From NCBI GenBank assembly GCA_947492745.1, contig CANLOE010000018.1:1-64000 (forward strand): 64,000 nt of DNA, given 5' to 3'. This stretch comes from an uncultured Cyclobacteriaceae bacterium (lineage in GTDB: Bacteria > Bacteroidota > Bacteroidia > Cytophagales > Cyclobacteriaceae). The notes under the pieces were generated by a model. The model was not told the origin of the DNA, did no database searches, and saw only the letters and a program-made list of their open reading frames with translations. The position numbers and the translations under genes are program-made. Below, piece after piece: positions 9,968-59,840 of this stretch. How positions within the stretch are numbered: position 1 is the first letter of the stretch; every line of letters starts with the position of its first letter.

Positions 9968-10063
9968 TTACTATTGACTTGGATTTATGCATAAACTCAG
10001 CGTTATGTCCGTTTTTAAAGGTTTCGTGAATGCACTGTATCATTTGTCGATTTGATTATGAGA

Positions 10064-10541
10064 CTTTTTTAGACTAATGATTGAATTTTATCATCACTTA
10101 TTTTGAGTAGGACCGAGCGCTAAGAAAATGTCCTTGAAGATTTAACCCGGATCATGCATTGATAAAACCTACTGCGGATCTAACTATCTGCAAATCAGTC
10201 GTTGCACTAAGTTTATTGAATTCACCATAATGGTGCTATGCTAAAACCCAATAAAAACTCCCTGATTTATTGCTATTTAAACCCTCGTTGCGAAGTTTCA
10301 ACGCATGATCCGGGTTTAACCAGTGAGGGGGCCAGCCTGTCGCGTGAGCATCATTAACAATACTGGCTTACTGTCCGAGAGATTTCAATGAAATGATGCG
10401 TCAAATGATCATCTACAGCAATGGGTATGATGGCGAAAGTAGTTGACCTGAGATAAGCTTACACCTGAAAATTCCGTATATACAATGAAAATCAACATCT
10501 TATATGTGAGAAATAAAGGATGCATTTTCAAAATAGGCTCT
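10064..10541. repeat. Degenerate long A-like element split by a family B element
   Basis: Left part TCACTTATTTTGAGTAGGACCGAGCG and right part GGGGCCAGCCTGTCGCGTGAG are adjacent in other A copies but here are separated by B at 10145-10315. The outer arms are eroded (GAGACTTTTTTAGA left, TTTTCAAAATAGGCTCTAA right). The right half carries extra sequence also present at 21868-22328. Confidence 0.65.
10145..10315 (+). mobile_element. Family B element, 171 bp, nested in an A-like element
   Basis: ACCCGGATCATGCATTG and GCATGATCCGGGT arms, flanked by TTA at 10142-10144 and 10316-10318. Removing the element plus one TTA restores the A-like sequence GAAGATTTAnCCAG, so TTA is a target-site duplication. 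Confidence 0.9.
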
Positions 10542-30823: not shown

Positions 30824-30849
30824 AGTCTCTCTCAAAACAATTGTATTTA

Positions 30850-31017
30850 TCCCGGATCATGCGTTGGAACTTCGTTACGAGGGTTTAAATAGCAATAAAT
30901 CAGAGGGTTTTATTGGATTTGGCATAGCACCGCTATGGTGAATCCAAAAAACGTAGTGCAACAACTGATTTGCAGCTATTTAGATCCGCAGTAGATTTTC
31001 CAATGCATGATCCGGGT
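30850..31017 (-). mobile_element. Family B element, 168 bp
   Basis: TCCCGGATCATGCGTTGGAA and CCAATGCATGATCCGGGT arms, flanked by TTA at 30847-30849 and 31018-31020. The right TTA also forms the start of the adjacent F element. Confidence 0.9.
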
Positions 31018-31184
31018 TTATACTCAAGAAAAAATGAAATGGAAAATTTGGGGTCCGGCAAAAAGGGAAAAATCCTGCATTGGTACAATTTCATTAGTGG
31101 ATTGATCATTGGGGTCGTCCCAAGTGGAACAGTGCTTTCGCAATGATTTTCAGTCTGTCCCAAAACAATTGCGTTCGGGTATAA
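31018..31184 (-). mobile_element. Family F element, 167 bp
   Basis: Ends TTATACTCAAG and CGGGTATAA (8-bp matching termini TTATACyC). Internal ATTGGTACAATTTCATT and GTCCCAAGTGGAACAGTG match the F copy at 40831-40997 in reverse. Both ends abut other repeat or IS remnants. Confidence 0.82.
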
Positions 31185-31204: not shown

Positions 31205-31357
31205 CCCTTCCACACAGAGTTCAAGATGATGGTTTTGAAACTATGCATTACAGGTAAGCCTCCACGAGAAGTAGCGGAAGAACCGGGAATGAGTACGGAG
31301 TCGGTCAGATGCCGGAAAAGAGAGCATGCACAGCCCCCTACCATAATGGCCAAGATT
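31205..31357 (+). pseudogene. IS3-type transposase OrfA fragment
   Basis: An open frame without its own start encodes TEFKMMVLKLCITGKPP, REVAEEPGMSTESVR and KREHA, the N-terminal helix-turn-helix of IS3-family OrfA proteins (compare the usual 'GKSPREVAEELGMS...RRWKRE'). It runs into the family B element at 31361 and has no downstream part. Distinct in sequence from the IS3 remnant at 34787. Confidence 0.7.
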
Positions 31358-31360
31358 TCA

Positions 31361-31528
31361 ACCCGGATGATGTATTAGAGCTTAGTTATGAGGGTTTAGA
31401 AAGCAATAAATCGGGGTGTTTTATCGGATTCAGCGTAGCACCGCTACGGTGAATTCGAAAAACGCATTCACTTTACCGATCTGCAGCTATTTAAGTCCGT
31501 GATAGAAGGGCTAATGCATGATTCGGGT
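31361..31528 (-). mobile_element. Family B element, 168 bp
   Basis: ACCCGGATGATGTATTAGA and TAATGCATGATTCGGGT arms; flanks TCA left, TTA right (one mismatch). It truncates the OrfA fragment on its left. Confidence 0.85.
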
Positions 31529-31842
31529 TTAAACAGTTGGTACAGAAGTAATTTATGTGGAAACAAAAACCAGTGATATATTTGGATTGAAGGTTCAGGA
31601 TGTTTTTGGTAGATCCTGCCCTCCCTCCCTGTCCGCTTTTATCCCAAATCCTGAACGAAATCGGACACTTTCTTCTTGTTGCCACAGATTATCAGCCACT
31701 TACACCTATTTAAATCCGATTGTACCTTTATATTGCCGATTAAAAATACACTTCTCATTCGGTACAATGCTTGTACGTCTTAAGGCTGAATACGAACACC
31801 CACGAACGATACAACAAACACAGCACACACAACAAATCAACT

Positions 31843-34275: not shown

Positions 34276-34332
34276 TTGCAAAGCTCTTGACCTTCCTGTT
34301 GTAAGGCTGCCCACCGAGGCGGCCTTTTTTTA

Positions 34333-34499
34333 TCCCAAAATGTTCGTTGGAACTTCGTCATGAGGACTTAACTGGCAATAAATCAGAGCGTTTTCTTGGA
34401 TTCAGCGTAGCACCGCTGCGGTTAATTCAAAAAACGCATTCAGTTACTGATTTGAAGCCAGTTAAGTCCGGAATAGATTTTCTAATGGACATTTTGGGT
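34333..34499 (-). mobile_element. Family B element, B' variant, 167 bp
   Basis: TCCCAAAATGTTCGTTGGAA and CTAATGGACATTTTGGGT arms; the core AGCGTAGCACCGCTGCGG matches B. Flanks TTA left, TCA right. It lies about 60 bp after the outer-membrane protein gene and truncates the IS66 fragment on its right. Confidence 0.85.
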
Positions 34500-34502
34500 T
34501 CA

Positions 34503-34638
34503 AGGGCTTTCCTGAAAACTTCTTCATCCAGTACTGCACCTTGCCCTCCGTCAGGCCATGGGCCTTGATGAACTCCTTCCGGCTCTGTCCGGAACCCGCC
34601 AGCTCCTTCATCTTTTGCGATTTTGGTATGCGTGCCAT
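34503..34638 (-). pseudogene. IS66 accessory protein (TnpA) fragment
   Basis: Starts ATG at 34638 and encodes MARIPKSQKMKELAGSGQSR followed by EFIKAHGLTEGKVQYWMKKF, the N-terminal HTH of IS66-family TnpA. It then runs out of homology into the B' element, so about two thirds of the gene is gone. The next 110 bp (34639-34751) may hold the eroded IS end. Confidence 0.75.
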
Positions 34639-48996: not shown

Positions 48997-49584
48997 ATGA
49001 GCAAAAAATTAATAGTCTTTATCGTCCTCGGTATTTTCTTTGGCTTTTTCATAGTGTTGGGTATCGGTTTTTTCATGTGGGGCACGGGTGTTTATGATAA
49101 AGCTGTTGTCGCTCAGGAAGAGGTCAATGAGAGCTGGGCCAATGTACAGGCGGCCTACCAACGCCGTGCCGATTTGGTGCCGAATCTGGTCAATACGGTG
49201 AAAGGAGCTGCCGAAAGCGAGGAAAGGATTCTCACGAAAGTGACCCAGGCTAGAGCAGGCATCGTTAATGCCAAGACCCCGGAAGATATGGAGATGTTCG
49301 GAAAGGAAATCAATACCGCCATCAACCTCGCCTTTGAGGCCTACCCTGAAATTCGCTCTACGGCCCGGTTCGGTGAGCTACAGGCACAACTAGAGGGTAC
49401 TGAAAACCGGATAAACGTAGCTAGGGTGAGGTACAACAGAACCATAAAAGAGTATAACGCCCTGGTAAGAGGATACTTCAGGGAGTGGGCCTTGAACTTC
49501 TTCGGAGATGGAGAGGAGTTTGACAAAAGGAAAGGTTTCACTGCTCAAGAAGGTGCGGATATAGCTCCCGAAGTACAGTTTTAA
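48997..49584 (+). CDS. lemA: LemA family protein
   Basis: A 195-aa LemA protein: one N-terminal transmembrane helix (about 5-28) and a long helical bundle. Conserved family segments are present: WANVQAAYQRRADLVPNLV (about 47-65), GELQAQLEGTENRINVAR and NRTIKEYNALVRGY. Function in the envelope is poorly defined. LemA genes are usually followed by TPM-domain (TLP18.3) genes; none is present here. The stop codon TAA (49582-49584) straddles the junction with a family B element: its first two bases belong to the TTA target repeat and its last base is the first base of the element. The sequence after the element would also give TAA, so the protein end is unchanged. Confidence 0.92.
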   Translation: MSKKLIVFIVLGIFFGFFIVLGIGFFMWGTGVYDKAVVAQEEVNESWANVQAAYQRRADLVPNLVNTVKGAAESEERILTKVTQARAGIVNAKTPEDMEMFGKEINTAINLAFEAYPEIRSTARFGELQAQLEGTENRINVARVRYNRTIKEYNALVRGYFREWALNFFGDGEEFDKRKGFTAQEGADIAPEVQF

Positions 49585-49751
49585 CCCGGATCATGCGTTA
49601 GGACTTCATAACTAGGGTTTACATATCCATAAATCAGTGCGTTTTATTGGATTTAGCAGGGTACCGCTATGGTGAATTCAAAAAACGTAGTGCAACGACC
49701 GGTTTGCAGCTATTTAGATCCGTAGTAGATTTTTCAGTGCATGATCTGGGT
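49584..49751 (-). mobile_element. Family B element, 168 bp, at the lemA stop codon
   Basis: ACCCGGATCATGCGTTAGGA and TCAGTGCATGATCTGGGT arms, flanked by TTA at 49581-49583 and 49752-49754. It separates the lemA stop from a terminator hairpin at 49781. Confidence 0.92.
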
Positions 49752-49780
49752 TTAACCTGGTCGGGACCATTTCGAAAGAA

Positions 49781-49812
49781 GCCTCTGCAAACCTTGCAGG
49801 GGCCTATTTTTT
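49781..49812 (+). terminator. Terminator originally serving lemA
   Basis: GCCTCTGCAA / TTGCAGGGGC stem (one G-T pair), loop ACC, then CTATTTTTTAT. It overlaps the last bases of the convergent methyltransferase gene. Confidence 0.65.
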
Positions 49813-50403
49813 ATACAAGACCAGTGTCAGCATACTTCTTTGATCATTGACATTGACAGCCTTGATAGGTTCGGCCAGGGCCAATCCATATTTTTCCAGA
49901 CAGAGGTCGATTTTTTCTTGGTCGAGCAAATAGCGCTCCGACCCGTCCTCTAGCGCATAGCGCCCGTCCCCTAAAGCCAAGGGCTCGTGACAGAGTCCCA
50001 TTTTACCACAACTACGTATAAATAACAAACCTCCCGGTTTCAAAGCGCCACAGAGGGCCGCGAACATGCTATCAAAGTGTGCATGGCCATCTGCGAAGTG
50101 GAGGACAGCATTGCAGAGAATAGCATCGAAAGAAGGCACTACGAAGGGCATGTCCTCCACACTGCTCCGAATGAAGCAGTCCTGACGTGCTTTGTTCATC
50201 ATACGGAGCATCTGGATGGCCGTAGCTTCCCTGTCCACACCGTAGACCTCATAGCCCTGCTGTATAAAGTAGTGCAGGTTACGCCCCTCACCACAACCGG
50301 CATCCAATATCTTCATGGAAGGCTCAAAGCGCCCTTTGAGCAATTGGTCCAGTAAATAGAGGTCGATATTTCCTACCGATCGGTTGATGTCCTGAATAGT
50401 CAT
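49804..50403 (-). CDS. SAM-dependent methyltransferase
   Basis: A 199-aa class I methyltransferase. Motif I MKILDAGCGEGRNLHYF (about 30-46), acidic beta-2 end in YGVDREATA, post-motif SVEDMPFVVPSFDAILCN and ALKPGGLLFIRSCGK. Similar to small UbiE/Tellurite-resistance-TehB-like proteins; the substrate is unknown. Monocistronic and convergent with lemA. Confidence 0.85.
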   Translation of the reverse strand: MTIQDINRSVGNIDLYLLDQLLKGRFEPSMKILDAGCGEGRNLHYFIQQGYEVYGVDREATAIQMLRMMNKARQDCFIRSSVEDMPFVVPSFDAILCNAVLHFADGHAHFDSMFAALCGALKPGGLLFIRSCGKMGLCHEPLALGDGRYALEDGSERYLLDQEKIDLCLEKYGLALAEPIKAVNVNDQRSMLTLVLYKK

Positions 50404-50686
50404 AGTGGGTGTTTGATGACTAAAATAATGAGAATATTGGATAAAGATGTTTTATACTCAAAATTGTCATTTAAAGAATTTTCAGGAATGTGCAATGTGC
50501 ATTAAACTGAGTCGGTTGGGCAAGAACGCGATATTCATTTCCTACGTAATCTTTTGGTGTATCGTGTTATTGAAATATACATAAATAGTACTGCTATTAT
50601 TGTCAATGATGCTCACACGACAGGCTGGCCCCTTCGCTGGCTAAATCTTCAAGGACATTTTCTTGACGCTCGGCCCTACTCGAAAT

Positions 50687-51008
50687 GAAGTGATTTAGAC
50701 TTTTTGTTTTATACAAATTTGCTTTTTAAATGTCGTGTAAGATTTCGCAGATCATTTTGGGCTAAACAAGGCGAAAACCACAGGGATAGCAGCGCTATCG
50801 TGAGGATTTTCAACGCAGGGTAGCGCAAAATGAACAGGAAGATAGGCGACATTTGAAATGTAAGTTTGTATTAAAGCGAAAATAAAGGATTTTTTGCCCC
50901 GGTGAAGCCTTTTTTGAGTGGCGTAGCCAAGGTTACGTCAGGAGAAAAGTCAAGATCAGGGTAAAACAAGACTTATTTGCAGCCAGAAGAAAAAGTCTGA
51001 ATCACTTC
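50687..51008 (+). mobile_element. Family E element split by family C
   Basis: GAAGTGATTTAGACTTTTTG and AAAAAGTCTGAATCACTTC arms, flanked by AAT at 50684-50686 and 51009-51011. Removing C and one TTA leaves 160 bp, the size of E at 22112. Confidence 0.9.
50712..50870 (-). mobile_element. Family C element, 159 bp, innermost of a triple nest
   Basis: TACAAATTTGCTTTTTAAAT and TGTAAGTTTGTA arms, flanked by TTA at 50709-50711 and 50871-50873. Intact E copies read GTTTTGAAGCG at this point. Confidence 0.92.
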
Positions 51009-51096
51009 AATAAGCGATAACAAGTTTCTAGAATAATTTCAAAAAAAGTATCCAAAGATCAATTTGTTGAATATCAATATTTAGCGGAGCCAACGC

Positions 51097-51204
51097 TCAT
51101 TTTTTTACAGACGGACAATGTACTTCTTTATATTCAGGACAGAACCATTTTCCGCAATCCACTGTGATAGGGTCTGAAAAAGTGACGATTACGAATGTCT
51201 CCAT
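51097..51204 (-). CDS. Possible 35-aa Cys-rich small ORF or gene remnant
   Basis: ATG at 51204 starts METFVIVTFSDPITVDCGK, then WFCPEYKEVHCPSVKK and TGA. Three cysteines and a natural-looking end suggest coding, but length is small and no family is recognised. The stretch 51205-52028 otherwise shows nothing convincing apart from AT-rich DNA. Confidence 0.25.
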   Translation of the reverse strand: METFVIVTFSDPITVDCGKWFCPEYKEVHCPSVKK

Positions 51205-52028
51205 TGTTACTATAACTGATACTATTGTTACGAATCTTTGTCTCAGACCTAAGTTATTCTATCACTGCCCTGAAAACACCTTGACAGACTCATTATGGAG
51301 AAGGAAGTTCAATCAGGCAGATGCGATTTGACTGTTCACTAGTATTTTGAGTGATTTATTTGGCTATTGACCCTGTCAAATTTGCTTTGACAGACCTAAA
51401 AAAGGAGCTTTTTTTTAAATAATCCGGCTTTAGGGACGTTTTGGATAACATACCCCAAAAGTGATTCTTATCTGCGCGTATTTTTTTGATTTATCGCAAC
51501 GACCTTAATATAAAAAAACAATAATAAAAATGATTTTAATCATCGGTCTTGATGATTTATGTCATCGCAGACGCCTGCCGAATTCATTTATTTTAGGGAT
51601 ACTTTATGGTTGATAAGAATAAGAATGATAAAATTAATATACTGTTTACGTTGTCTTTTCCAAAAGACAAATAAGAGTTTGCTTTAATTCTTAACCCCTT
51701 ATTTAATACTAGTTTCCGAGAGTGACCTACTCGGTTGTACCTTATAAAAACCGAATATCCATATAAAATACCTGCACTCATAGTAAAGATAGTCTCGACA
51801 GTTTGGCAAATACCCATATCATTATGCAACTATTATTATAATTATTAATAGATACTTAATGCTTGCCCACCACTGAAGTGCTGTTGTATTCTCCACTTGA
51901 CTCTAAGATGCGGATGATTTGAATTTGTCGAGAGGTCTTCTCTATCCTCTGACCGATTATATATGACCAAACAGGTATCCTAAACACTGCCTGATTATTA
52001 ACCAATATCTCTAATTAAACCCTAAAAC

Positions 52029-55000
52029 ATGAATGTACATCTATTTTACCGCAAACTATTTGGTTTGGTAGGCTTATGCATGATGCTCTTTCTCTGTGCC
52101 CCATTACAGGCACAAGTGGAAAATGGTATCGAGCAGGGCATTTTCAGGATAAAAGTCAGTCCTGAGATGGCAAGGCAAATCGAAAGCACTACACTGTTCA
52201 AAGATTCGAATGGAATCGCCAGAACGGGCCTTTCAAGATTGGACCGCCTGAATCAAGAGTTCAGGACTTCGGATATGAAGCGTACTTTCCGGCACGCAGG
52301 GAAATTTGAAAACAAACATAGAGCACATGGGCTACATCTATGGTACGATGTTATCATTGACAAAGACCAAAACGAAGAAGTCGCTGTCCGTTCTTATTCG
52401 GAGCTTCCCGACGTACAGATTGCAGAACCCTGCTTAAAGGTATCTCTGGGAGTAGAGCGCAATGATGACCAGAGCCTGTTAGTGGAAGACCCACTGGGGG
52501 AGGCTCCTAACGATCCTTCGTTTCCTATTCAGTGGCATTATAACAACACAGGCCAGGGGGGAGGTAAACCCGGTGCGGACATCAGTTTATTGAAGGCCTG
52601 GGAGGACCAAACAGGTAGCCCCGATATTATTGTATCGGTAGTCGATGGCGGTATAGATGTCGATCACGAAGACCTAGCGGCAAATATGTGGATAAATGCC
52701 GATGAAATTCCCGGCAACGGTATCGATGATGATAATAATGGTTATATCGACGATATCAATGGGTATGGTTTTGCAACAAACACTCCTGATTTTCCCGGTG
52801 ACTCACATGGAACTCATGTTGGAGGTACAGTGGCAGCTGTTACCAATAATGGTATAGGCATGTCCGGTGTAGCCGGTGGCTCGGGTAGTGGTACGGACGG
52901 AGTTCGAATGATGTCATGCGCTACTTTTATTGAGGGAAACGTCGGTGGTTTTCCCGAAGCGGTTGCTTATGGAGCGGATAATGGGGCAGTTATTTCTCAG
53001 AATAGCTGGGGTTATACCCAAGAGGGGGATTTTGAACAGGCATTATTGGATGCAATTGATTACTTCACTACCGAGGCCGGATACGATGCTGATGGCAATC
53101 CTTTCGGCCCCATGCAGGGAGGTATTGTTATTTTTGCAGCCGGCAATAGTGGTGCTTTTGGAGAATGGTATCCAGGGTACTACGAGCCGACCTTTGCGGT
53201 ATCGGGTTCGGATAGAAATGATGAAATCTATATATCCTCCAATAGAGGCGACTGGGTGGAAATCGCCGCCCCCGCTGTACAGGTACAAAGTACACTACCG
53301 GGTAACCGTTATGGTTCGATTACAGGTACTTCCATGGCCTGTCCTCACGTATCCGGTGTAGCAGCACTCATTGTGAGTAAATATGCAGGGAGTATCACTC
53401 CCGAAGAGGTACGCCATAGATTGATCAGTACTGTGGATAAAGTAGCCACTCTACCCGATAGCTTCGGAGCCGGTCGATTGAATGCCTTCAGGGCATTGCA
53501 GGATGATGATGGCATAAGTCCTGATTCGGTGACCGACCTCAGTGTGGTCGAATCAGGCCAAAATACGATAAGCCTGACATGGACCGCACCTAGAGATGAG
53601 GGAAATGGTTCTGCTAGTATCTACGATATTCGCTACTCCAAAGCACCCATTAGTTCGGTTAACTTTGACGGTGCCATCCAGGTAGTCCCTACAAAACCGG
53701 CACAAGGAGCAGGTACCATAGAAGAGTTGACCGTTGCGGACCTCGACCCTTCCACTACATATTATTTCGCATTGAAAGCTATCGATGTGTTCGGTAATGT
53801 ATCTGCGATTTCCAATGTCGTCATGGGAACTACCGAGGCTGCTCCCATCATTGCTATAACTCCTACATCACTGGACATGACCATTGATGTTACAGTAAAT
53901 CCGATAAGGAGCGAATCACTATCTATCAGTAATAGTGGAGAAGGTGCAGACCTCGATTTTATAGGCAGTGTATTATCCTTTGATGCTGCTACAAGCTCAA
54001 AATTACTCTATCCTGGTAAGGGCCTGACTACTATCGACCAGAGAGTATACGGACAGGGAAATGCCTCTGATCAACCAGAGAAATCAGTTGCAGGTACATC
54101 AAAACAAGTCTTTGGGAGCCGCTTTGCCAGTAATATAGATGCCATCGATTCTGTCTATTATGACTCCGGTGATGAAACGGCCGAAAATTTCGCTGGTCTG
54201 AATGGAGGTCCTTATACTACTGCGATTCGCTATGAAGTAGGCCAACCTACTTTTACCTTTACGCATTATAAAAATTTCTTGAGAACGGAAACACTCACTT
54301 CTGCCTTAATGATTTTTGAGGTATACAAGGGGGATGATATCGCCACGGCCCAACTATTAACGGCTCAAGAAGAAAATCTCATAAGTGAGGAAGGGGAATT
54401 TTTTGTGGTAGAATTGGCCAGTCCTCAGACTTTTATGGAGGGGGATGTTTTCTGGGTAGTAACAAAATACCCTGACGGCATTTCATTTCCTCAAGGAGTT
54501 GATGAGGGCTTCTCTCAAAGACCGGATACATTTTTCTTCAGTAGTGATGGAGGAGCATCTTTTGGGGCCTCCGGTTTTGTGTTCAAACAAAGGGCTCTGA
54601 ATGCAGACAACAGTGGAAATATAGTCAACTGGGTAAGTCTTGACCCCGCGATAGGCACTGTAGTACCTGGCGCCACGGAAATCGTAGAAGCGACCTTCGA
54701 TGCTACTTCTGTTATCAATGGTACATACGATTTGATTCTGAGGTTCAGCAGCAATGATATAGAAAACCCCACAGTAGACATCCCCACTACGGTTACCGTA
54801 TCGGGTCAGCCTTCCAAGCTTGCCTTGGGAACTACCTTGTTGGAGTTTGGAAGTGTGTTCGTGGGAGCTGAAAAAACGCTTGATATGGACATTATCAATG
54901 AGGGGCTTGGAGACTTGGTGGTCGACAGTATCTATACCACCTTATCCAGTTTCAGTGTCGATAGTGAGGCTTCTACTATCGAACCCGGCAAGGAAGGGAG

Positions 55001-58000
55001 CATCTCAGTTACTTTCAATGCCGATATCGCCGGAAATAGTAATGGCAAACTGATCATTGTCACTAATGGAGGTACTTTGGAAGTGCTTTTAGTCGGTATA
55101 GGGGTGTTACCTCCCGTATTGGAAGTGGACAGCGATGTTGTTATCGATACCTTAGATGCAGGCGACATCCGTACCCGTACCATGATTATTGGTAATTCGG
55201 GTGACTATCCGCTTACTTTTTCTTTTCCCGAGCTGGCAGCGAAAAACCTCCTTGCTCGTCAAGATATCCAAAAAAACGATGTTTCCATTATCAAAAAACT
55301 GGACACCAATCATCAAAAAGGGTCTGAAATAGCCGCTAATGGCCATTCTGTAGTGTTGGGTGCAGGTGAAGACCTGGACTATGGCTATACTTGGATTGAC
55401 AGCGAAGAAATAGGAGGCCCCGTATTTGTCTGGAACGATATCAAAGAGACAGGTACGGAGATACTAGAAAATGTCGACGACGGATTCGAGGAGATAGATC
55501 TACCTTTTACCTTTGTTTTTTATGGCGATAACAAAAGGAGTGTAAAGATATCCAGCAACGGTTACTTGACCTTTGGTGATGATGGTGGAGACTTTTCCAA
55601 TGATCAGATTCCAACGGACCTAGATCCCAATGATATGATAGCCCCTTTCTGGGACGATCTACGACCTTCGGAAAGAAGGGGACGTATATTCTATCAGAAT
55701 CTGAACGATAACTTTGTGGTACAATATGACAGTATCGGTACTTATTCCGGAGAAGGCCATGCTACTTTTCAGGTAATGATCACTAGGCATGGAGGTATCA
55801 CTTTCTATTATAAGGAGATGAGCGGATTGAGTGTCAGTACCAGTGCAACGGTAGGTATTGAGAACAGTGATGGAAGTGATGGGGCCCAAGTAGTGTTCAA
55901 CAGTGAGTTGGTCAAAGATGACTATGCGGTAACGATCACTCCTCCGCAGCCCGACTTTATTTCTACTGTTTCGCCACTCAGTGGTGTTATCCCTGTAGGT
56001 GGAGAAAAGGAAATCGAGGTCACTTTGGATGCTACCAGTATCAACGACGGTACCTACTTCAACGAATTACTGATTTCAAGCAATGACCCCACGAATTCGC
56101 CGGCCATAGTGCCGTTTAACCTGACGGTACTGGGACAGGCAGGGATCATCGTTTCTCCGGATACCTTGTCTTTCGACAGTTTGCTGCTGAGCTTGGACCA
56201 GAAGAAGTCCTTTTATATAAAGAACTCGGGGACCAAAGTAATGATGGTAAGCAATATTTCCGGTAGTAATTCTGATTTTATATATAATTTCGAAGGGCCG
56301 GCAGTACTATCCCCGGGCGACTCCGTAGTGGTAGAGGTCTTCTTTGCACCTAGTGTAGCGGGACTCATAGAAGGAATCCTGAGTATCGAGAGCGATGCTA
56401 CTGATGATGAGGTTACTTTGTTCCTTTCCGGTGTAGGTTTGGAGCCCCCTGTAATAGCGGTAGCTCCCGACAGTATTGTAGCAACAGCTATGGCCAATAC
56501 CATCGTTATGGATACTTTGGAAATCACCAACAACGGTTTTTCGGAACTGACCTATAGCATCGCTGCCCCCTACTGGTTTGATGTAAATGCTCCAAGGACA
56601 GCATCCAACACCGATCATATCATCAGTTATGAACCCTTGTTGAATAAAATGGATAAGGACACACGTTCAGGGCATCCTGTATTGTTCGGCGGAGGTAATG
56701 ATGGTAGCTTTGGCTATACTTGGGAAGATAACAAGGACGGAGCCGGACCTGTATATGACTTTGAGGACATACAAACCTCAGGAACGAATATCACCTCCAT
56801 TCTGACCAATGGTACGTTTGCAGACGGAAGTGTCAAGGTACCATTAGGTTTTGGGTTTGACTTTTATGGTAATAACTACGATAGTGTCAATATCTCTGCT
56901 AATGGAGTCCTTTTCTTCGGAAATCAGACCAACACTACTTTCAGCAATAAACAGATTCCGGAAGATTCCGATCTCAATAACCTGATTGCAGGTTTCTGGA
57001 ATGACCTCGAACCCGGTCTACCATCGGGTACGGTACATTTTGCGAATACACCCGAATATTTTGTGGTTCAGTATACCGATGTCCCGGCTTTTAATGTGAC
57101 AGGAGCAGGGATAACCTTTCAGGTACTACTCTTTCCTGACGGGAAAATCAAGATGATGTACGAAGATGTATCCAAGGCATTGTTTTTAGAGAGTGGTACG
57201 GTAGGTATCGAAGGAGAAGACGGGACTGATGGTATTCAAGTAGTATTCAACAATACCTATTTGGAGGACAAACTGGCCATACTGTTTCAGGGACCTCCTA
57301 CCGGCACTATAGCTTCCGGGACCACAGCCTTGATTCCCATTGAGCTGAACGCCACAGGACTTATCGATGGTGTATATAAAGGAGAGATCAATGTCAATAG
57401 CAATGACCCGGTAACCCCCACGGTAAGCATACCGACCACTTTTACGGTAATCGGTGTCCCTGAAGTGGTTGTGGATAAGGAGGGAATTGACTTTGGAAAA
57501 GTCTTTGTAGCTCCTGACTCTTCATTTACTATGAGTGAGGTCATCACTATTTCCAATGAAGGTAGCCTATCGGCAACCATCGATTCGGTGTATGTCAGTG
57601 GCGATGCTTTTACTATAGAAAGCTTTTCTGCGCCCTTGGTCTTGGCACCGAAACAGGATACCACCTTTACCTTGACTTTTAGTCCCGACAGTCCCGATAA
57701 ATTTGTAGAGGAGCTGGTTATAGAAACTGTGGGTAGTGAGTCTTTTGTGTTAAGTCTTGTCGGAGAAGGTATCACTCCACCAAAATTTTCCATCGAGACG
57801 GAGAGCGATACTATCTATGCAAAAGTAAGGCTGAACGGTAATATAAGGGGAAATACCATCAAAGTACTCAATGCAGGAGGAGCCGATTTGATATTCGACA
57901 CTGAAGTCATCCCGCTGAGCAAGCGACAAAGTGCTGCACTGAATGAGAATACTCCCGCTTTTGGGGAGGCGCTACCAGGACAGAAAATAACCAGATCTAA

Positions 58001-59840
58001 TGCGACTGTCCGTCAGGCTGTCCACTTGTTCAATGAGGATGTAGAATTCGCGGATTCTATTGCCTATGAAGATGAATCTATAGCAGACGACTTTGTCGGC
58101 ATACAGGCAACAGACCTTGCCCTCGTATCCGCTACCAAATTTGTAGCTCCTGTGAATGGGTTCTCATTGTCCTATGTGAGAAACTTTGTCAAAACAGAAG
58201 GCAGTACAGATGCCATTACCATGAAAGTCTATGTAGGTGGTACTGTGCCTACGCAAGGAGAACTGGTTCTAGAACAGTCTTACACTGGGTCATCGAGTAC
58301 AGGTGCATTTGACCTGATCGAGCTGGAAGAACTGAAAGTCTTTGGACCCGGAGAGACTTTCTGGGTGGTGTTCAAATATCCGACCAGTATTGTATTCCCT
58401 CAAGGCTTTCAGGAAAATATGTCGGATGTAGAAGGGCTTTACTATTATAGTAATGATGATGAAGCTTCTTGGATACCTATAGAGAATGACCTGCCCAATA
58501 TCGCATTTAAAGTGAGGGCGATGTCAATCGGTGGAGCTGGTTGGATAGAACTTACTCCTGAAAGTGGAGAAGTAGCTGCGGGTAGTGATGGGACTATTGA
58601 TGTATTGCTAGATGCGGAAGGTCTGGCCCCTGGTGAGTACTTGGCAAGTATCAATGTCAATAGCAATGACCCCTTTAACCCAAAAGCCTCTGTACCCGTA
58701 AAACTTCAGGTCAATGCACCTCCTGTCTTTGTTGAAGTACCTGGAGATACTGTTGAGATCGATGAGAACGAATTGCTGGAACTGCGCTTTCAAGCTGAGG
58801 ATAGTGATGGTAAGGTCGTCAGTTATGCTATCGAAGAAGAGTATGAAAACTCCTTTTTCTCGGCCTTTGCGAGACCTCCATTCTTGAGATTCAGACCGGA
58901 TTATGAGCAAAGTGGCTTTTACAACTTCACCATATTTGCCGTAGACGACTTCGGAGACGAAACAGCACTTGATTTTGTGGTCAAAGTAAACGACGTAAAT
59001 CGCGATCCTATTATCACCAAACAACTACAGTGGGATAGGGTAACCGAAACTTCGGGTACCAAATTCATCGACCTGTCAGAGTTTTTGACAGACCCTGATG
59101 GAGATGAGCTGACCTATACCGTATCTGCTAGCGATCCTGAAGTACTGGATATGGTAGTGATGGGGAGTACCCTTGAATACACACCTCTGAAAAGTGGTTT
59201 TGTTTTCGTCAGTATTGTTGCAGAGGATGGTAAGGGCGGTATCGCCGGTACCTCTACGGCAGTGTTGGTCAGGGAGGCAAATCGCTCTCCTGAAGTCATC
59301 AGGACCGAGAGTGATAAAGTACTGGAGAGTCAGAGCAATACGATAGTTGTAGACTTGAGTACCTATTTCAGCGATCCCGATGAGGGCGATGTACTTAGCT
59401 ATAGCGTTACCACTACTGACGGAGAGATCGCCATTGCCAAAATCCATGGAAACATGCTCGAAATCACGCATGTTGACGTGGGCAATGCTGATTTTATGGT
59501 CACTGCCAGTGATATAGAAGGAGCGAAAGTAAGTACTACGTTCACTTCAAAAGTGGCTACCCTTATCGAAGATACAGGGGATGACAGGACCAAGCTGATG
59601 AACTATCCTAATCCTTACACTTCTGAAACGACCATTGGTTATCAGGTGGAAGCCGAAGGCCACGTACTGTTACAGGTACTTGGTAGCAACGGTCAACTTC
59701 TGGAAACTTTAGTGGACGAAAAACAGAGCGAAGGCGCGAAAGAAGTGACTTTCTACAATAGAAGTCTTCCCGTCGGAACTTATTTGTACCGATTGGAAAT
59801 CGATGGAAAGGTAAGCTTGAAGCGCATGATTCGAGAGTAG
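52029..59840 (+). CDS. Giant S8 subtilase with multidomain tail, T9SS-exported
   Basis: A 2603-aa surface or secreted serine protease. A signal peptide covers 1-28. The subtilisin domain (about 165-490) has the full triad: Asp206 (SVVDGGID), His260 (DSHGTHVGG), Ser435 (GTSMACPHVSG), with oxyanion Asn373 (AAGNSGA); residues 30-145 are a probable propeptide. Next a fibronectin type III domain (about 495-605), then a long tail of repeated modules: choice-of-anchor-like beta-sandwiches with 'SNDPTNSPA/NSNDPVTPT' ends, and two related blocks (about 1115-1310 and 1540-1760) with the pattern YGYTW, SSNGYLTFGD or SANGVLFFGN, IAPFWDDL or IAGFWNDL. Cadherin-like domains (about 2225-2520) precede a C-terminal sorting domain (NYPNPYTSETTIGY to the end). 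Likely an adhesive or matrix-degrading surface enzyme. Single gene with a strong terminator. Confidence 0.9.
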   Translation: MNVHLFYRKLFGLVGLCMMLFLCAPLQAQVENGIEQGIFRIKVSPEMARQIESTTLFKDSNGIARTGLSRLDRLNQEFRTSDMKRTFRHAGKFENKHRAHGLHLWYDVIIDKDQNEEVAVRSYSELPDVQIAEPCLKVSLGVERNDDQSLLVEDPLGEAPNDPSFPIQWHYNNTGQGGGKPGADISLLKAWEDQTGSPDIIVSVVDGGIDVDHEDLAANMWINADEIPGNGIDDDNNGYIDDINGYGFATNTPDFPGDSHGTHVGGTVAAVTNNGIGMSGVAGGSGSGTDGVRMMSCATFIEGNVGGFPEAVAYGADNGAVISQNSWGYTQEGDFEQALLDAIDYFTTEAGYDADGNPFGPMQGGIVIFAAGNSGAFGEWYPGYYEPTFAVSGSDRNDEIYISSNRGDWVEIAAPAVQVQSTLPGNRYGSITGTSMACPHVSGVAALIVSKYAGSITPEEVRHRLISTVDKVATLPDSFGAGRLNAFRALQDDDGISPDSVTDLSVVESGQNTISLTWTAPRDEGNGSASIYDIRYSKAPISSVNFDGAIQVVPTKPAQGAGTIEELTVADLDPSTTYYFALKAIDVFGNVSAISNVVMGTTEAAPIIAITPTSLDMTIDVTVNPIRSESLSISNSGEGADLDFIGSVLSFDAATSSKLLYPGKGLTTIDQRVYGQGNASDQPEKSVAGTSKQVFGSRFASNIDAIDSVYYDSGDETAENFAGLNGGPYTTAIRYEVGQPTFTFTHYKNFLRTETLTSALMIFEVYKGDDIATAQLLTAQEENLISEEGEFFVVELASPQTFMEGDVFWVVTKYPDGISFPQGVDEGFSQRPDTFFFSSDGGASFGASGFVFKQRALNADNSGNIVNWVSLDPAIGTVVPGATEIVEATFDATSVINGTYDLILRFSSNDIENPTVDIPTTVTVSGQPSKLALGTTLLEFGSVFVGAEKTLDMDIINEGLGDLVVDSIYTTLSSFSVDSEASTIEPGKEGSISVTFNADIAGNSNGKLIIVTNGGTLEVLLVGIGVLPPVLEVDSDVVIDTLDAGDIRTRTMIIGNSGDYPLTFSFPELAAKNLLARQDIQKNDVSIIKKLDTNHQKGSEIAANGHSVVLGAGEDLDYGYTWIDSEEIGGPVFVWNDIKETGTEILENVDDGFEEIDLPFTFVFYGDNKRSVKISSNGYLTFGDDGGDFSNDQIPTDLDPNDMIAPFWDDLRPSERRGRIFYQNLNDNFVVQYDSIGTYSGEGHATFQVMITRHGGITFYYKEMSGLSVSTSATVGIENSDGSDGAQVVFNSELVKDDYAVTITPPQPDFISTVSPLSGVIPVGGEKEIEVTLDATSINDGTYFNELLISSNDPTNSPAIVPFNLTVLGQAGIIVSPDTLSFDSLLLSLDQKKSFYIKNSGTKVMMVSNISGSNSDFIYNFEGPAVLSPGDSVVVEVFFAPSVAGLIEGILSIESDATDDEVTLFLSGVGLEPPVIAVAPDSIVATAMANTIVMDTLEITNNGFSELTYSIAAPYWFDVNAPRTASNTDHIISYEPLLNKMDKDTRSGHPVLFGGGNDGSFGYTWEDNKDGAGPVYDFEDIQTSGTNITSILTNGTFADGSVKVPLGFGFDFYGNNYDSVNISANGVLFFGNQTNTTFSNKQIPEDSDLNNLIAGFWNDLEPGLPSGTVHFANTPEYFVVQYTDVPAFNVTGAGITFQVLLFPDGKIKMMYEDVSKALFLESGTVGIEGEDGTDGIQVVFNNTYLEDKLAILFQGPPTGTIASGTTALIPIELNATGLIDGVYKGEINVNSNDPVTPTVSIPTTFTVIGVPEVVVDKEGIDFGKVFVAPDSSFTMSEVITISNEGSLSATIDSVYVSGDAFTIESFSAPLVLAPKQDTTFTLTFSPDSPDKFVEELVIETVGSESFVLSLVGEGITPPKFSIETESDTIYAKVRLNGNIRGNTIKVLNAGGADLIFDTEVIPLSKRQSAALNENTPAFGEALPGQKITRSNATVRQAVHLFNEDVEFADSIAYEDESIADDFVGIQATDLALVSATKFVAPVNGFSLSYVRNFVKTEGSTDAITMKVYVGGTVPTQGELVLEQSYTGSSSTGAFDLIELEELKVFGPGETFWVVFKYPTSIVFPQGFQENMSDVEGLYYYSNDDEASWIPIENDLPNIAFKVRAMSIGGAGWIELTPESGEVAAGSDGTIDVLLDAEGLAPGEYLASINVNSNDPFNPKASVPVKLQVNAPPVFVEVPGDTVEIDENELLELRFQAEDSDGKVVSYAIEEEYENSFFSAFARPPFLRFRPDYEQSGFYNFTIFAVDDFGDETALDFVVKVNDVNRDPIITKQLQWDRVTETSGTKFIDLSEFLTDPDGDELTYTVSASDPEVLDMVVMGSTLEYTPLKSGFVFVSIVAEDGKGGIAGTSTAVLVREANRSPEVIRTESDKVLESQSNTIVVDLSTYFSDPDEGDVLSYSVTTTDGEIAIAKIHGNMLEITHVDVGNADFMVTASDIEGAKVSTTFTSKVATLIEDTGDDRTKLMNYPNPYTSETTIGYQVEAEGHVLLQVLGSNGQLLETLVDEKQSEGAKEVTFYNRSLPVGTYLYRLEIDGKVSLKRMIRE

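Follow-up and report, generated by a model that had tools for sequence, protein, structure and literature searches.

Three elements nested between divergent genes

How did three short repeated elements come to lie one inside another in a single intergenic gap, and how far does their order tell when their families moved? The window (the whole stretch of DNA analysed, 64,000 nucleotides) lies on contig C18 of a 7.1 Mb genome in 458 contigs, and the proteins it encodes resemble Bacteroidota proteins. A stack of three short elements, here called A, E and C, occupies its 1.6-kb gap between the divergent open reading frames listed at 49804-50403 (minus strand) and 52029-59840 (plus strand). The explanation in which we have high confidence is that three MITEs without transposases, A, E and C, inserted one after another in that order, each of which would have been moved in trans. 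A would have inserted first, in the intergenic gap; E would then have inserted in A, duplicating AAT; and C would have inserted in E, duplicating TTA. The element boundaries were read from the sequence and then checked by script, and they and the target repeats of E and C are directly observed:

50509..50686, plus strand: A element, left part, outermost and decayed; supported by the A profile from 50535, outer end placed by visual comparison with the A family end GAGACTGTTTT
50684..50686, no strand: target repeat AAT of E, left copy (script check)
50687..50711, plus strand: E, left part, carrying the left target repeat of C (E copies read and aligned; E profile)
50709..50711, no strand: target repeat TTA of C, left copy (script check)
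50712..50870, plus strand: C element, 159 bp, with 24-bp inverted ends, an imperfect palindrome over its full length
50785..50799, no strand: small central hairpin of C
50871..50873, no strand: target repeat TTA of C, right copy (script check)
50874..51008, plus strand: E, right part (E copies read and aligned; E profile)
51009..51011, no strand: target repeat AAT of E, right copy (script check)
51012..51052, plus strand: A element, right part; alignment continuous after splicing, profile support to 51044, end set by eye

The interrupted E runs from 50687 to 51008 with C included, and has the ends GAAGTGATTTAGAC and GAAGTGATTCAGAC. C compared with its own reverse strand gives a 68% match, and the right part of A matches other A copies within the window (blastn). 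The initial annotation described an A-like element broken at 50686/51012 by an E with AAT repeats, and a C within that E with TTA repeats; the repeats and the restored hosts (below) both agree with this. It also gave the composite as 50545-51055, where the nest itself stands but A starts further out, at about 50509, and ends at about 51052. That A is an insertion at all is read from its alignment to the family, since the outer ends of this copy have decayed and its own target repeat was not found at the nest.

Restoring the empty sites

Excision of C together with one TTA leaves an E of 160 bp. Its alignments to the eight intact E copies at L020-L025, L027 and L028 show 96.9-99.4% identity; matches number 155-159, mismatches 1-5 and gaps 1-2. 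The restored E scores 187.0 bits against the E profile, as against 164.6 + 7.4 bits for the filled sequence. Excision of E with one AAT similarly restores A: the joined sequence scores 119.2 bits against the A profile in one alignment that spans the junction (filled sequence, 92.3 + 9.4 bits), and shares 69.0-77.6% identity with the listed A copies when gaps are disregarded. The earlier statement that every removal restores uninterrupted sequence is borne out by the profiles and the E alignments, except that a single base differs at the C site and one A is missing from E. The sequence at the C site is TTTTA on both flanks of C in the nest's E, and TTTTG in all eight intact E copies read; the missing A lies beyond the C site. 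The simplest account, we infer, would be a G-to-A change in this copy of E that created a usable target prior to the insertion of C.

Two other explanations were weighed. The composite might be a single larger element that moves as a unit, and C does lie between two outer halves, placed as a larger element's ends would be. The initial annotation had itself named the composite occurring elsewhere as one unit, without uninterrupted E or A copies, as evidence against nesting. A search of the genome with the 511-bp composite instead returns one full-length match, the composite itself, among the 67 matches listed (best 40 of 962 candidates scored), and the remaining listed matches are partial, being pieces of C, E or A. 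Moreover, C, E and A each occur alone elsewhere with their own target repeats, as for intact E and young C copies, so movement as a unit is very improbable. The same very low probability attaches to an assembly artefact, in which the 458-contig assembly joined unrelated copies by way of the repeated C. Young C copies are near-identical and some contigs do terminate inside C-type copies; against this, a single E, with matching TTA repeats, is split between the two flanks of C, and a single A, with matching AAT repeats, between those of E. A misjoin is disfavoured because a chance join would not restore both E and A. Three successive insertions therefore remain the preferred reading, and the local order A, then E, then C is sound, since E and A are both known in uninterrupted form and the listed matches include the full-length composite once.

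Copy numbers and divergence of the three families

All three families have the properties of MITEs. C is 159 bp long with 24-bp inverted ends, has no transposase gene, carries target repeats and is present in many copies; its flanks are equal in 49 of 56 distinct complete copies (TTA in 34, TAA in 15) and unequal in the other 7. E is 160-161 bp long, and 7 of its 8 copies have equal repeats of 3 bp. The A family measures 200-222 bp (rows were retained at 200-226 bp), with equal repeats, TTA or TAA, on 10 of 16 rows representing 15 copies; the nest's own copy belongs here despite its decayed ends. Copy numbers were observed as matches to the end repeats, which count ends and not elements: 593 + 560 = 1153 genome-wide for C (at most 3 mismatches; control 0 + 1), 112 + 126 = 238 for E (at most 3 mismatches; control 8 + 8) and 303 + 322 = 625 for A (at most 2 mismatches; control 26 + 8). 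The 511-bp query matched none of 38 relatives from the same family or order at E<=0.001, with the best 16 or fewer candidates scored per genome.

Pairwise identity, gaps aside, has a median of 81.6% (69.5-97.2) among 15 A copies, 98.1% (95.6-100) among 8 E copies and 100% (99.4-100) among 17 young C copies. For 39 older C copies the median is 94.3% (77.8-100); the divide between young and old C, at 97% identity to the window copy, is the analyst's choice. Divergence falls from A to E to young C, in agreement with the order in the nest. The clear relative chronology claimed earlier for this locus holds up on both counts, the restored empty sites and the divergence of the families. The further claim that C moved most recently fits the locus and the identity range of young C; it does not carry over to whole families, in which C also acts as host.

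Guests and hosts across the genome

A matrix of guests and hosts was built from 168 complete copies of six families at the fetched loci, an insertion being called when joining the flanks restored the host; it is biased towards C, E and A, because the loci were picked by likeness to those families. C is a guest in 22 of its 70 copies: the host is D in 10 of these, C in 4, G in 4, E in 2 (one of them the window copy) and F in 2. As for the rest, D (n = 31) is found in A (6), C (1) and E (1); F (n = 11) in C, D and E (1 each); G (n = 13) in D (2) and A (1); and A (n = 27) once in C, a weak call at L083 (57.9 vs 51.7 bits). None of 16 complete E copies was called a guest, and E in A is known from the nest locus only; the nest's own E falls outside those 16 because it is interrupted. 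In this set the two target repeats are equal for C in 59 of 70 copies, for A in 16 of 27, for D in 13 of 31, for E in 12 of 16, for G in 11 of 13 and for F in 6 of 11.

Ten interrupted elements came out of a search for split copies. Within the window, a D-type element interrupts an A element at 10060-10409, and a C (2479-2637, with TTA repeats) sits in a G-type element at 2414-2737. Elsewhere, a second stack of three elements, old C in D in A, was read by eye at L189:1501-1987, as was a stack of F in D in E at L064:1501-2173, where D has two differing target repeats. Since such nests and stacks occur in the same genome, the nest studied here is one case of a recurring pattern.

How much the local order says about whole families is a separate matter. 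We see an even chance that the order is right at the locus while the activity of the families overlapped, so that the nest does not date them. C-type elements serve as hosts in 7 cases, some of them weak calls, with younger C (4), A (1), D (1) and F (1) as guests, and at L154 an A occupies what seems to be an insertion site within an old fragment of C. Reciprocal insertions are strong evidence of simultaneous activity, according to an authors' response printed with PMC3072357. On the other side, C is commoner as guest than as host in this sample biased to C, E and A, and divergence yields the same family order. Returning to the order A, E, C, a broader proposal is that successive waves of MITE families can be read in this genome, beginning with A, followed by D and E, next by F and G, and closing with C; the families differ in their ends and target repeats, and each would have been moved by a different transposase. 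The waves would comprise about a thousand elements or more (a total estimated from end counts), in a burst private to the lineage (relatives having been searched with the A/E/C query). We judge this proposal equally apt to hold or to fail. If it holds, nesting order alone could date bursts of mobile elements within one bacterial genome.

Candidate mobilisers

Mobilisation in trans would require the transposase of a full-length relative to recognise the same ends and to duplicate a 3-bp target. Matches to transposase profiles in the genome number 14 for PF01609, 2 for PF13359 and 3 for PF13340, at loci partly shared. Locus L145 is a 917-bp element with an IS5-type transposase frame and AAT on both sides, whose ends agree with those of E at 15 of 16 bases on the left and 14 of 16 on the right. 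Its frame scores 42.1 bits against PF01609 (above the cut-off of 23) and 100.7 bits against NF033580 (below the cut-off of 110). Further inward, the left end of E resembles the 5' end of L145 (fraction of 2000 shuffles, 0.009), and the other three interior end comparisons give 0.26-0.39 of shuffles. Because of its AAT repeat and near-E ends, L145 likely represents the type of E's mobiliser, as a relative and a candidate only; a prokaryotic MITE and its partner need common borders only, often under 20 nt (PMC3852290), so L145 is a fair candidate type and no proof. An IS5-type enzyme like that of L145 would thus have moved E. A decayed relative of L145, with stop codons, is present on contig C50.

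From the appearance of its ends, A too would have been moved by an IS5-type enzyme; over its first nine bases the end of A is identical to the ends of ISPg4 and MITEPgRS (table in PMC4596501). At 28 loci (24 partly overlapping ones plus L208-L211), no A ends were found 0.5-3 kb apart around a transposase. The sole pair of A ends among them, at L208, belongs to two separate A copies that flank other genes.

The mover of C would be some enzyme that inserts at TTA/TAA. C ends lie 0.5-3 kb apart at L142, L153 and L177. At L142 they are 1.68 kb apart and enclose an IS4-family element (882-2561; NF033592, 159.9 bits), which has entered a C-type MITE at the hairpin in its centre. The ends of the IS4 element itself, CATAGCC.TCAGGCTAA, agree at 16 of 17 bases, and a 10-bp near-repeat (9 of 10) lies within C. 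With its own ends and this near-repeat at the centre of C, the IS4 element is a guest of C and was rejected as its autonomous parent. C likewise does not qualify as IS4-derived, and a contig search across other genomes confirmed no relatives of the L142 transposase. L153 was also rejected, because its left end is part of a complete C copy that lies next to the remains of a transposase. No full-length parent element of A or C was found in this fragmented assembly, which may conceal the parent of C; alternatively, that parent may have been lost. The C-end pattern occurs elsewhere in at least two stretches of genome contigs and in four stretches of viral contigs.

Relation to known systems

Nesting of MITE-like elements is commonplace in plants. 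The available portions of the open-licence literature examined on nested bacterial MITEs describe no MITE-in-MITE stack in a bacterium; they do describe high-copy MITEs, MITEs in mobile elements and IS in MITE (PMC9769881, PMC10969869, PMC4853749, PMC4596501, PMC9208149, PMC3852290, PMC5306136, PMC3072357). The IS5-family MITEs of Porphyromonas gingivalis (MITEPgRS/MITE464 and BrickBuilt) are also from Bacteroidota, short and transposase-less, and nesting of ISPg elements within other mobile DNA is described as possible (PMC4596501). Ends of MITEPgRS and ISPg4 such as GAGACTGTTGCA share their first nine bases with A, which diverges afterwards, and the ends of C and E differ from those of the P. 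gingivalis MITEs; BrickBuilt has 19 copies, as compared with hundreds of end matches here (PMC4596501). MITECca01 of Cardinium cOegib is likewise a lineage-specific burst of an IS-derived MITE, with 169 copies mostly intergenic or within mobile elements. However, it is a single, IS982-derived family very seldom interrupted by other elements (PMC9769881), whereas several families inter-insert here. ERIC elements, as described, resemble the present ones in being short and in hundreds of copies (711 in Photorhabdus), and QMITE2 as a target of IS1111 parallels L142 in having an IS in the palindrome of a MITE; as far as the consulted part of that review goes, IS in MITE is described and stacks of three MITEs are not (PMC10969869).

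The kind of element is thus already known, and the distinction of this genome is its genome-wide load and the scope for ordering bursts by nesting. Nested insertions are a relative clock that needs no outgroup, and a genome with so many inter-inserted miniatures would be well suited to measuring the order of bursts and the choice of targets.

Folding, the hairpin core and family D

As DNA, the element parts fold with z scores of -2.79 for C, -0.50 for E and -0.68 for A. Rfam returns nothing at E<=0.1 within 49500-52100, and promoter-like sites (5 vs 5.9 in shuffles) and terminator-like sites (1 vs 1.0) show no excess. The core of the hairpin occurs 10 times in the window, where 0.02 are expected:

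342, 2551, 9881, 14270, 30595, 30924, 35457, 50786, 60099 and 62011: hairpin core ATAGCNNNGCTAT

Genome-wide the core has 1094 sites vs 15 in the control, and 0-24 per genome in 38 genomes of relatives. It is centrally placed in C (55 of 56 complete copies), in D (16 of 23 copies) and in F/G (12 of 28 copies); the exact core is present off centre in 2 of 15 complete A copies and in none of 8 complete E copies. In comparisons of consensus sequences, F is related to D and also to G (0 of 500 shuffles as good). Kinship of C with D or F is unconvincing, as 45 and 19 of 500 shuffles scored equally, and A shows no convincing kinship with any other family. Family D has four copies listed in the window:

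30846-31020, 31357-31531, 34329-34503 and 49580-49754: D repeat family, with ends near CCCGGATCATGC

Equal 5-bp repeats flank D in 20 of 38 rows, TTTAA being the commonest.
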